From Bacteroidota bacterium (GTDB taxonomy: Bacteria; Bacteroidota; Bacteroidia; B-17B0; Aurantibacillaceae): DNA of 64,000 nt. Location: NCBI GenBank assembly GCA_030681615.1, contig JAUXSA010000061.1:1-64000 (forward strand). Reading direction: 5' to 3'. The translations under genes were made by a program, and so were the position numbers. The number at the start of each line of letters is the position of its first letter. The stretch's first letter is position 1. Below the pieces are notes generated by a model. It had not been told where the DNA came from, did not search any database, and worked only from the letters and a program-made list of their open reading frames with translations. Below, one piece after another: positions 43,631 through 47,117 of this stretch.

Positions 43631-44563
43631 TTACGATAATAATGAGATGCCCGTTAAATTAGCTTGATTACTTTTCAAAAATGCATAGGTTATTTTATCT
43701 ACTTTGCAGTCAATAAACTGCACGCGTTTAAATTTCTTATTGTTTTTAAAGAACGTATTTATTAGCGTTGCATTTTGGAATTTAACGTCATAAAAAGCGC
43801 AGTTTTCAAAATAACAGCCGTCAAAAGTGCCTTCAAAAACAACATCCTGAATTTGCATTTCAATAAAAGAGCTGTTATTCCACTTTACATTTGTAAGTGT
43901 GTTTTTCATGAAGTTACTGGATCTGAATGTTGTTTTGGTAAGATCGGCATCAGAGAAATCACAGGTATTGATATTGCTTTTTGTAAATTCAGTTTCTTGT
44001 AACGAACAGTTTTTAAATATGTTATTGCCTAAGTTAGAGCTCTGGATCTGACTGTTGCTGATGTCGGAATTTGTGAAGTCGCAGCTGTCAATATTATTGC
44101 TGTTTAAAATAAGTCCCGACATATTTGAACCGATAAACAAACATCTCTGCACGTTAGATGAGCCGAATTTTTCGTGCAGATTTTTAAGCCCTGAAAAATC
44201 ACTATCTACCAGGTTCAATTTAGACATATCCCAGTTGAGTTTTTTCTCTCCGGATCTATCAGGATGTTCAACTGCTGAGGATACAGTTTTTTCTTTTGTT
44301 AAAGACTTATAGTTGTTTAGCTCTGTATCTGCAGTCCGAATATCAATAGGGGCGAAGCTTTCTGAAAAGTAGTTAAGGTCTACACCCAAAATTTCTGCAA
44401 GACGATTTAAAGTTGTGATGTCTGGCATTGATTCTCCACGTTCCCACTTTCCTACTGCCTGAGAACTGATAGATACTTGCTGAGCAAGTTCTGCTTGTGA
44501 AAGATTAATTTTCTTTCTTGCTGTGGCAATTTTATTACCAATTGAAGTTGAATTTAGCATCAT
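43631..44563 (-). CDS. XRE-family HTH regulator fused to a pentapeptide-repeat domain
   Basis: Start at 44563 (MMLNSTSIG) gives 310 residues; an alternative ATG at 44611 would begin almost at the predicted transcription start. Residues ~6-65 are a Cro/CI-type HTH (KIATARKKINLSQAELAQQVSISSQAVGKWERGESMPDITTLNRLAEIL). After a linker come about 30 five-residue repeats (~115-300: SNMSGLILNSNNIDSCDFTNSDISNSQIQSSN, quoted in part as NIDSCDFTNSDISNS; DADLTKTTFRSSNF) forming a right-handed beta-helix. This type of protein can mimic DNA or bind proteins. Dyads overlap its promoter, consistent with autoregulation. Confidence 0.85.
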   Translation of the reverse strand: MMLNSTSIGNKIATARKKINLSQAELAQQVSISSQAVGKWERGESMPDITTLNRLAEILGVDLNYFSESFAPIDIRTADTELNNYKSLTKEKTVSSAVEHPDRSGEKKLNWDMSKLNLVDSDFSGLKNLHEKFGSSNVQRCLFIGSNMSGLILNSNNIDSCDFTNSDISNSQIQSSNLGNNIFKNCSLQETEFTKSNINTCDFSDADLTKTTFRSSNFMKNTLTNVKWNNSSFIEMQIQDVVFEGTFDGCYFENCAFYDVKFQNATLINTFFKNNKKFKRVQFIDCKVDKITYAFLKSNQANLTGISLLS

Positions 44564-44615
44564 TTTATTTTTGTTTTTTGATGCTACAAAGTTATTTTGT
44601 ACTGCCCCCATCTTG

Positions 44616-44751: not shown

Positions 44752-45396
44752 CTATTTACCAACTTTCATTGTTTGGGAATAAAATGATACTTCGCCAGTT
44801 GTAATATCGTGAGTACCTCCAACGATTCCGATCTGTCCGCTTTCAATCATTTCTTTAAGGATCGGGCTGCGTTCCATTATTGATTTTACTGAACGCTCAA
44901 CATTAATAGTTGCAACATTTTCTACGAAAACAGAATTTTTAGAATTGCGATTTTCTTTGGTTTGGGTTTCATCATCAACCGCAGGTCTTATCTTTGTTAG
45001 CAAGGCTGTTAAGTTGCCCATTTCCACGTGGTCGCAGGCACCTTTTACGGCTCCGCATTTAGTATGTCCTAACACCACAATAATTTTTGAACCGGCAACC
45101 TTGCAGGCAAATTCCATACTGCCTAAGATATCTTCATTAATAATGTTTCCGGCAATACGAACACTGAAAACATCACCAAGGCCCTGGTCAAAGATCAATT
45201 CCGCAGAAGTTCTGCTGTCAATACAACTAAGTATCACGGCAAAAGGATGTTGTCCGTCAGATGTTTCATTTGCTTGCTGCAAGAGGTTTCGATTTATTTT
45301 AAGATTGTTTACAAACCTTTTGTTTCCTTCCTTTAGTAATTCTAAAGCCATTAAAGGGGTTATGGCTGTTTGCATTTCTTTTGTTAGCGTTTTCAT
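44752..45396 (-). CDS. can: Beta-class carbonic anhydrase
   Basis: Interconverts CO2 and bicarbonate. A 214-residue protein with the beta-class zinc site: C58-I-D60-S-R62 (Asp-Arg dyad), H111 and C114 in LGHTKCGAV. FDQGLGDVFSVRIAGNI and IVGGTHDITTGEVSF are also typical. Without a signal peptide it is cytoplasmic. It lies 19 bp downstream of the bestrophin gene, and both are read from the TetR-facing promoter, so enzyme and channel are co-expressed. This pairing suggests bicarbonate handling. Confidence 0.93.
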   Translation of the reverse strand: MKTLTKEMQTAITPLMALELLKEGNKRFVNNLKINRNLLQQANETSDGQHPFAVILSCIDSRTSAELIFDQGLGDVFSVRIAGNIINEDILGSMEFACKVAGSKIIVVLGHTKCGAVKGACDHVEMGNLTALLTKIRPAVDDETQTKENRNSKNSVFVENVATINVERSVKSIMERSPILKEMIESGQIGIVGGTHDITTGEVSFYSQTMKVGK

Positions 45397-45415
45397 TTTT
45401 AGTTGAGTTTAATGG

Positions 45416-46306
45416 TTATAGTTCATAAAATTTTTCTGGTGGATATGCTTTAGGAATTTCGGTTTCCTTTAATAACTGTTTAATATTTATTTCAATTTTT
45501 CGGGAAATTGTTGTCATTGCTGTATCAGTTGGTCTGTTCTCAAACGGATCCTGCATATGGGATGCCGATTTTTCTAACAAAAAGAATCCTATAGAAATAG
45601 CGATCAGAAGTGGCGTTTCAAATAGTCCGTCAACTCTTAAAGACATGGCAAGAGTGATAACAAAAAGGTAAATGAGTGCATGAAGAAAGAGGCGATAAGT
45701 AACAGGAAATACAGTTGATTTTATCCGTTCTGCTTTTCCTTGCGCATCGCAAAGCCGCACCAACGTATTGTCTAATTGTATTTGAGAAAATAGTTCAAGT
45801 TGATTACCATCTTTAAGCTCTTTAATATCTTTGCTGTGCAGTTGAAGTAACGCTAACGGTTTATTATTATGTTGTTGTATTTCTTTAAGGTCTTCCTGGG
45901 AAATAAATTTTTCCAGGTTTTCTATTGGATCTAATTCTCTAAGCGTTTGTCCTAACGAGTAGCACCAGGCAATTTGTCTGAATGCAATTTTCTTAATCAG
46001 AGTGTCATTCCCTTTTGATGTTAAGGTTTGTAACTGAATAACAAAACTGCGCGAGTCGTTTACAATGGCGCCCCATACTTTGCGGGCTTCCCACCATCTA
46101 TCGTAAGATTGACTAAGTTTAAAAGAAAGAAGAATTGAAATGGCTGTTCCAATAAAAGCAGGAATCGTTAAAGGCATTTCGGGAAGCAGGTCTTTATACT
46201 TTTCGGTAATAAAAAGAACCGACAACGATACGATAAGCACGTAAACAAGGTCATACTTTACCTTATCGAGTATATAAGATGCAGGAATTCGTTTATTGAG
46301 CAACAT
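45416..46306 (-). CDS. Bestrophin-family anion channel
   Basis: A 296-residue membrane protein of the bestrophin (UPF0187) family: early helices with YDLVYVLIVSLSVLFITEKY and LTIPAFIGTAISILLSFKLSQSYDRWWEARKVWGAIVNDSRSF, whose 'SYDRWWEARKxWG' block is the family signature, then paired helices ~200-240 and LLIAISIGFFLLEKSASHMQDPFENRPTD, with the conserved D-P-F. Bacterial members form pentameric channels, some with cation preference; thylakoid bestrophins carry bicarbonate to a carbonic anhydrase. The neighbouring carbonic anhydrase supports the second role here (inference). Confidence 0.9.
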   Translation of the reverse strand: MLLNKRIPASYILDKVKYDLVYVLIVSLSVLFITEKYKDLLPEMPLTIPAFIGTAISILLSFKLSQSYDRWWEARKVWGAIVNDSRSFVIQLQTLTSKGNDTLIKKIAFRQIAWCYSLGQTLRELDPIENLEKFISQEDLKEIQQHNNKPLALLQLHSKDIKELKDGNQLELFSQIQLDNTLVRLCDAQGKAERIKSTVFPVTYRLFLHALIYLFVITLAMSLRVDGLFETPLLIAISIGFFLLEKSASHMQDPFENRPTDTAMTTISRKIEINIKQLLKETEIPKAYPPEKFYEL

Positions 46307-46330
46307 AATTGAATTTTTTAATATTCAGCA

Positions 46331-46405
46331 CAAAGATAGGAATAGGTTTTTTAAATGATAGCAATACTATCATAAATAATTGTAAAATTATTTTCCGTAG
46401 CTTTG
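46331..46405. promoter_or_regulatory. Divergent promoters with a perfect TetR-type operator
   Basis: The 19-bp palindrome ATGATAG-CAATA-CTATCAT (46355-46373) lies between TATCTTTG on the minus strand (46331-46338, for bestrophin-carbonic anhydrase) and TAGCTTTG on the plus strand (46398-46405, for the TetR gene). Both are perfect TAnnTTTG. The operator covers the -33 region of both promoters, so one bound TetR dimer could shut off both directions. Confidence 0.75.
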
Positions 46406-46439
46406 TTGTTGTAATAAACAGAAGTAAAAAACACCTAAA

Positions 46440-47117
46440 ATGAAGTTGCAGTTACAGATAAAGATGAATGAAGCATTGTTTCTTCGTAACCCCGAAAGCT
46501 CAGAGCTAGGAAAGAATATACTTAAATACAGTATTCAGTTAATTTATAAAACTGGTTTCGAGGCATTTACTTTTAAGAAACTGGCTGAAGACATTGGGAC
46601 AACGGAAGCAGGAATTTACAGATACTTTGAGAACAAGCATAAATTATTGGTTTACCTAACAGCCTGGTATTGGTGTTGGCTTGAGTTTCAGATCAGTTTC
46701 CATACCAATAATATTAAGGACCCAACTGTTAAGTTAAAGAGAGTAATAAAGCTATTAGCAACTGCCATTGAAGATGATGAGCAAACCAGTTATATAAATG
46801 AGAGTTTGTTGCACCAAATAATTATTACGGAAGGCTCAAAAGCATACCTTACAAAGCAAGTAGGAGAAGATAATAAACAGCAGTTTTTTAAGCCGTATAA
46901 AGACCTATGCGCGGTTATTGGAAAGATTATAACAGAATGCAGTGCTAAATATAAATACCCTAAATCTTTAGCTTCTACAATTATTGAAATGGCTCATTTT
47001 CAAAACTTCTTTATGAAAAATCTGCCGTCATTAACCGACTTCGGTAATACGAAAGAGGAAAGTGAAATAATAGACTTTCTAAATGATCTCGTGTTTACGA
47101 GTTTGAAAAAAAGTTAA
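46440..47117 (+). CDS. TetR-family transcriptional regulator
   Basis: A 225-residue regulator. Residues ~20-70 hold the TetR HTH: LGKNILKYSIQLIYKTGFEAFTFKKLAEDIGTTEAGIYRYFENKHKLLVYLTAWYW. The rest is a helical ligand-binding domain with no recognised ligand class. The divergent placement opposite bestrophin and carbonic anhydrase, with a perfect 19-bp palindrome between them, makes those genes its likely targets. The inducer may relate to CO2, bicarbonate or an anion, but this is speculation. Confidence 0.9.
   Translation: MKLQLQIKMNEALFLRNPESSELGKNILKYSIQLIYKTGFEAFTFKKLAEDIGTTEAGIYRYFENKHKLLVYLTAWYWCWLEFQISFHTNNIKDPTVKLKRVIKLLATAIEDDEQTSYINESLLHQIIITEGSKAYLTKQVGEDNKQQFFKPYKDLCAVIGKIITECSAKYKYPKSLASTIIEMAHFQNFFMKNLPSLTDFGNTKEESEIIDFLNDLVFTSLKKS

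Follow-up and report, generated by a model that had tools for sequence, protein, structure and literature searches.

The main finding of this work is that a bestrophin gene and a beta-carbonic anhydrase (CA) gene form a conserved operon in a Bacteroidota genome, facing a TetR-family regulator with a predicted operator, and that related operons hold a SulP gene in the place of the bestrophin. The operon has the look of a bacterial bicarbonate/CO2 module not recognised before, in which the ion of the channel is putative. The native roles of bacterial bestrophins are, to our knowledge, poorly known, and a conserved CA operon in which they are interchangeable with SulP gives them a concrete, testable role.

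Gene content of the locus

The CA, the bestrophin and the facing TetR gene claimed in the preliminary description were all recovered by Pfam in the window (the whole stretch of 64,000 nucleotides that was analysed):

44752-45396, minus strand: beta-carbonic anhydrase, 214 aa (PF00484, 140.6 bits, 6.5e-41)
45416-46306, minus strand: bestrophin, 296 aa (PF25539 Bestrophin_2, 183.8 bits, cut-off 27, 6.8e-54)
46440-47117, plus strand: TetR-family regulator, 225 aa (N-terminal helix-turn-helix PF00440, 38.9 bits, cut-off 24, 7.1e-10)

The bestrophin gene lies 19 bp upstream of the CA gene on the same strand, and tetR is divergent from both, with 133 bp between the starts. An XRE-type helix-turn-helix fused to pentapeptide repeats adjoins the operon at 43631-44611 (minus strand).

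Judged by its PF00484 domain and its active-site residues, the enzyme is a beta-carbonic anhydrase, and CO2 hydration is predicted for it. The C-x-D-x-R...H-x-x-C site is present, with C58, H111 and C114 as predicted Zn ligands and with the pair D60/R62, and the catalytic residues are kept in 73-74 of 76 homologues; the nearest solved structures are 2a5v/1ym3. Since the protein is without a hydrophobic leader and its match to NF011765 (261 bits, cut-off 221) begins at model position 42, it is probably cytoplasmic.

The bestrophin is assigned to the bacterial Bestrophin_2 family by its score over the PF25539 cut-off and by its alignment with KpBest, the best-studied bacterial bestrophin, which is a Na+ channel with the neck I-I-F, in which a change of the middle Ile to Phe favours Cl- (PMC8496536). 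This alignment (with 4wd7, E 9.3e-30) extends over residues 12-287, nearly the whole length, and by homology to KpBest the fold is already fixed. PF25539 was used in place of PF01062 (eukaryotic bestrophin), which matched neither the own genome nor the controls. Mapped on the KpBest alignment, the neck reads T54-I58-F62 and the cytosolic aperture is F173, which align with I62, I66, F70 and I180 of KpBest. The first neck residue is polar (Thr), unlike in KpBest and the eukaryotic channels, and there is no middle Phe, the residue associated with anion selectivity in eukaryotes. This Phe does not set the CA-linked bestrophins apart, whose necks are TIF in 35 of 44 and TFF in 2 of 44, and the neck Thr is common across the bestrophin group, with or without CA.

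Conservation of the bestrophin-CA pairing

A neighbourhood search for bestrophin genes beside CA genes, which had been set beforehand as a test able to refute the idea, covered 100 related genomes, 59 with a bestrophin and 89 with a CA, and showed that the pairing is conserved: 24 adjacent pairs were present, against about 0.08 expected by chance. In 21 of these CA followed the bestrophin on one strand, in the other 3 the two genes were convergent, and the gaps were mostly 7-34 bp. When bestrophins were grouped by Pfam score and length, without a tree, pairs were seen in 0 of 51 classic bestrophins (~291 aa), 8 of 22 of the window's group (~300 aa) and 16 of 45 longer ones (~336 aa), so that two of the groups show the pairing, and two CA subfamilies take part in it. 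Both TetR and CA were found in 28 of the 77 named bestrophin loci whose flanks were long enough, TetR only in 2, CA only in 11 and neither in 36, and among the 28 closest named loci both were found in 23; these loci are related, and thus the counts are not independent events. Since 38 of the 77 have no CA nearby, the bestrophin can work without one. The holders belong to Flavobacteriia, Chitinophagia, Cytophagia, Sphingobacteriia and Bacteroidia, and the flanking genes vary between bestrophin-CA loci. One carrier of a TetR-bestrophin-CA unit is Foetidibacter luteolus (L205), which can be cultured and is non-pathogenic. The neighbourhood of the plasmid bestrophin of Hymenobacter tibetensis held no CA.

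Beside one intact bestrophin-CA pair, what was found of tetR is a C-terminal remnant of 62 aa (L110, G037:C18:193333-193512), and in Mucilaginibacter polytrichastri the CA of a TetR-bestrophin-CA unit is split over two reading frames (L202). Four bestrophins of the window's group without CA adjoin a two-component system of histidine kinase and response regulator (L093, L094, L095 and L096).

The predicted operator and promoters

The space between the divergent genes holds the following elements, of which the promoter elements follow the generally known Bacteroidota consensus:

46355-46373, no strand: operator ATGATAGCAATACTATCAT (ATGATAG-CAATA-CTATCAT), with the conserved core ATAGCAATACTAT at 46358-46370
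46338-46331, minus strand: -7-like element TATCTTTG of the bestrophin-CA promoter (pattern match TAnnTTTG)
46398-46405, plus strand: -7-like element TAGCTTTG of the tetR promoter (pattern match TAnnTTTG)

The motif ATAGNAWTNCTAT was found in the intergenic region upstream of 44 of 56 distinct tetR-homologue loci and, with one mismatch, in 9 of the other 12, that is, with at most one mismatch in 53 of 56. Order-1 shuffles of the same upstream regions (n=200) gave a mean of 0.045 loci and a maximum of 1. This conservation makes 46355-46373 a convincing predicted TetR operator, and the earlier proposal of TetR control of the operon is supported by such a conserved palindromic site between divergent promoters, binding and repression being predicted. 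The helix-turn-helix segment of TetR, TTEAGIYRYFENKH, is 84-100% conserved in the 56 homologues except for G58 (54%), which fits the conserved site. Matches of TetR to PDB sequences covered mainly the DNA-binding half and named no ligand. All strict operator matches in the first 824 kb of locus sequence adjoined a tetR homologue, an association that is suggestive only, since most loci were chosen for holding one of the three genes.

The site had been described as a perfect 19-bp palindrome between two -7 elements and over both -33 regions. The TAnnTTTG elements are indeed present on each side, but the palindrome is imperfect: its arms are 7 bp long, 8 of 9 pairs are complementary, and the mismatched pair falls within the 5-bp centre. 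Of the two -33-like TTG motifs, that of the bestrophin promoter (46364-46362, 23-nt spacer) lies within the palindrome, which stops 6 bp before that of the tetR promoter (46380-46382, 15-nt spacer). The symmetry alone is not significant, since an equally good palindrome with 8-bp arms, AAATAATTGTAAAATTATTT, lies beside the operator at 46374-46393 in an AT-rich stretch; it recurs in one close relative only and was dropped as an operator. A scan for sigma-70 promoters and terminators gave no more matches than shuffles. Operator-like sites elsewhere in the own genome (C5, C7, C79 and C168) were ascribed to chance, since a reversed control pattern gave 5 sites against 7 for the operator pattern. 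The exact core ATAGCAATACTAT occurs again some 20 bp ahead of a GT87 glycosyltransferase gene (L143, G000:C58:20157-20169), 130 bp from the contig end.

The same TetR subfamily is also found at exporters. HlyD/ABC-exporter-type genes adjoin at least ten TetR homologues in relatives, and most of these loci share the operator core. The inducer of TetR therefore need not be CO2; a response of TetR to CO2 is unsupported. These homologues are mostly 50-57% identical to the window's TetR, and those that are 85-94% identical are at bestrophin-CA, so that the signal may have diverged. In most relatives TetR homologues face HlyD/ABC exporter genes with this core (L148-L160), and behind the exporter gene there is often a gene of 375-500 aa, which in L149 encodes an outer-membrane efflux protein (PF02321). 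The own genome holds a 55% identical TetR paralogue (L090, G000:C38:3264-4000), divergent from a 744-aa HlyD/ABC-type exporter gene. Its operator core, ATAGTAATACTAT, is nearly that of the window, and cross-regulation between this paralogue and the window operator is possible.

Exchange with SulP

In one relative (L085, in G065) a TetR 63% identical to that of the window and the operator are followed by SulP, CA and DUF2490 genes, and in L176 the order is TetR, operator, bestrophin, CA and DUF2490; L188 has the parts of L176 with DUF2490 before CA. SulP also occurs near a TetR-bestrophin-CA unit (L165) and in a row with bestrophin and CA (L199). In the CA tree, enzymes with a SulP partner are intermingled with those that have a bestrophin partner, L085 and L135 (SulP) for instance grouping with L176 (bestrophin); at least six partner changes are implied, in a quick tree with many open forks. 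Because SulP-CA stands under the same TetR and operator and the CA tree is mixed, the bestrophin seems to fill the position of a bicarbonate transporter. Juxtaposition or fusion of SulP and CA is an accepted sign of bicarbonate transport (PMC6458275, which cites Felce and Saier 2004 for such pairs). By the same logic the bestrophin would move bicarbonate or a functionally equivalent ion, and the SulP exchange thus lends indirect support to a bicarbonate role of the window operon. As in the SulP-CA type, a transporter gene adjoins CA across genomes (24 pairs, 100 genomes); since the window's transporter matches PF25539 and not PF00916 (SulP), the operon is a variant rather than a member of that type.

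The host genome (4.28 Mb, 97.8% complete) contains four genes each for bestrophin and CA and two for SulP, and a phenotype may therefore be masked by the other CAs and bestrophins. Two bestrophin-CA pairs are present, in the window and on C103, and SulP adjoins CA on C77. The C103 pair (L098, G000:C103:16501-18010) has a longer bestrophin, the other CA subfamily and no TetR. A search for RuBisCO (PF00016), positive as a control in 5 genomes, gave no match in this 97.8%-complete genome, which is consistent with the earlier description of the phylum as non-photosynthetic and leaves the operon outside the autotrophic CO2-concentrating mechanisms, defined here by RuBisCO in the genome. Non-autotrophs still need bicarbonate for carboxylations (PMC6689103).

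Proposed mechanism and alternative explanations

We consider it reasonably likely that the operon is a TetR-repressed inorganic-carbon module, in which the bestrophin and the CA are made together and the bestrophin takes the place of the transporter. A TetR dimer would bind the ATAGNAWTNCTAT operator between the divergent promoters and, by occlusion, would shut off the bestrophin-CA operon, and probably tetR as well; what is observed here is the conservation of the operator. An inducer would release TetR, upon which the bestrophin channel and the cytoplasmic beta-CA would be made together. The CA would interconvert CO2 and HCO3-, and the bestrophin may pass HCO3- (or a balancing ion) across the inner membrane, doing the job that SulP would have in the sister operons. 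Without RuBisCO, the use could be the supply of CO2/HCO3- for carboxylations, or CO2/pH balance. By our own reasoning, HCO3- would tend mostly to exit, not enter, through a passive anion channel in an inside-negative membrane, unless bicarbonate outside is high; therefore the algal picture of feeding the CA need not hold, and CO2/pH balance seems at least as likely. The broader claim, that bestrophins are recurrent, unrecognised bacterial bicarbonate channels, paired with CA more than once in Bacteroidota, exchangeable with SulP and switched by a TetR operator in cells without RuBisCO, has in our judgement slightly less than an even chance of being right.

It is unlikely, in our view, that the bestrophin is instead a cation (Na+) channel like KpBest, in an operon for pH/ion homeostasis where the CA buffers protons. 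KpBest passes Na+, which its middle neck Ile favours (PMC8496536), and the window bestrophin keeps this Ile and is without the middle Phe. However, the first neck residue is Thr and not Ile, so that the KpBest selectivity rule is not directly transferable, and an anion is suggested by the exchange of the bestrophin for SulP anion transporters, which occupy its place next to the same CA and behind the same TetR operator. The frequent position of TetR homologues, and of the own paralogue on C38, beside HlyD/ABC exporters, mostly with the same core, would fit an envelope- or toxic-compound-stress regulon in which TetR senses a small molecule and mainly controls exporters, with bestrophin-CA as one target and carbon as secondary. 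We regard this as distinctly improbable, since the most similar homologues are those at bestrophin-CA and the signal may have diverged from that at the exporters; it moreover bears less on what the pair does than on the signal, and is compatible with an inorganic-carbon module.

A third possibility is that bestrophin and CA have no functional link and are inherited together by accident, as part of a mobile or ancestral block; it would agree with the interrelation of the closest loci and with the 36 of 77 named loci that have neither partner. It is nevertheless largely refuted, and we give it hardly any credence, because two bestrophin groups are joined with two CA subfamilies, CA lies nearly always downstream on the same strand, and the flanking genes differ among loci. 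Compared with these alternatives, the TetR-repressed inorganic-carbon module is the reading that we retain.

Comparison with known systems

No description of a bacterial bestrophin-CA operon was found in the open-access literature, subscription papers being outside the search, and bestrophin goes unmentioned in a recent review of the inorganic-carbon tool kits of bacteria (PMC10880623). Several known systems share features with the window operon.

We know of no CA partner for KpBest. This protein of Klebsiella pneumoniae (PDB 4wd7/4wd8; PMC8496536) is likewise a bacterial bestrophin and aligns over nearly its full length, but it is a Na+ channel and its neck is I-I-F, against T-I-F in the window. 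Like the module proposed for the window pair, MpsAB consists of two genes, concerns inorganic carbon and is found in heterotrophs. Its proteins are presumably unrelated to the bestrophin and CA of the window. MpsAB supplies inorganic carbon in non-autotrophs, and CA can functionally replace it (PMC6689103).

In algae, too, bestrophin-family channels are linked with a carbonic anhydrase. We take the homology of the window bestrophin to the algal BST proteins to be remote. The algal bestrophin-like BST1-3 are proposed to supply HCO3- to the thylakoid CAH3 (PMC6708349); unlike the window operon, this system is eukaryotic, lies in the thylakoid membrane, serves RuBisCO and has neither operon nor TetR, and CAH3 is described as an alpha-type enzyme. 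The algal analogy drawn in the preliminary description is weak, given the remote homology, the Na+ channel KpBest and the expected passive exit of HCO3-. Set against that description, the case has gained strength in conservation and in the operator, and has lost some in its algal side. If our reading is true, bacteria offer a non-photosynthetic counterpart to the algal bestrophin-CA partnerships, and engineering could draw on a small bicarbonate channel together with its regulator.

The SulP-CA pairs and fusions (the Rv3273 type, and sulP-can2 of Acidithiobacillus ferrooxidans; PMC6458275) likewise place a transporter gene beside a cytoplasmic beta-CA. The window operon differs from them in having a bestrophin channel, a protein unrelated to SulP, as its transporter and in its divergent TetR with its own operator, in a genome without a RuBisCO match. 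The CA subfamilies of the SulP-CA pairs are related to that of the window, and in L085 such a pair has the same TetR and operator.
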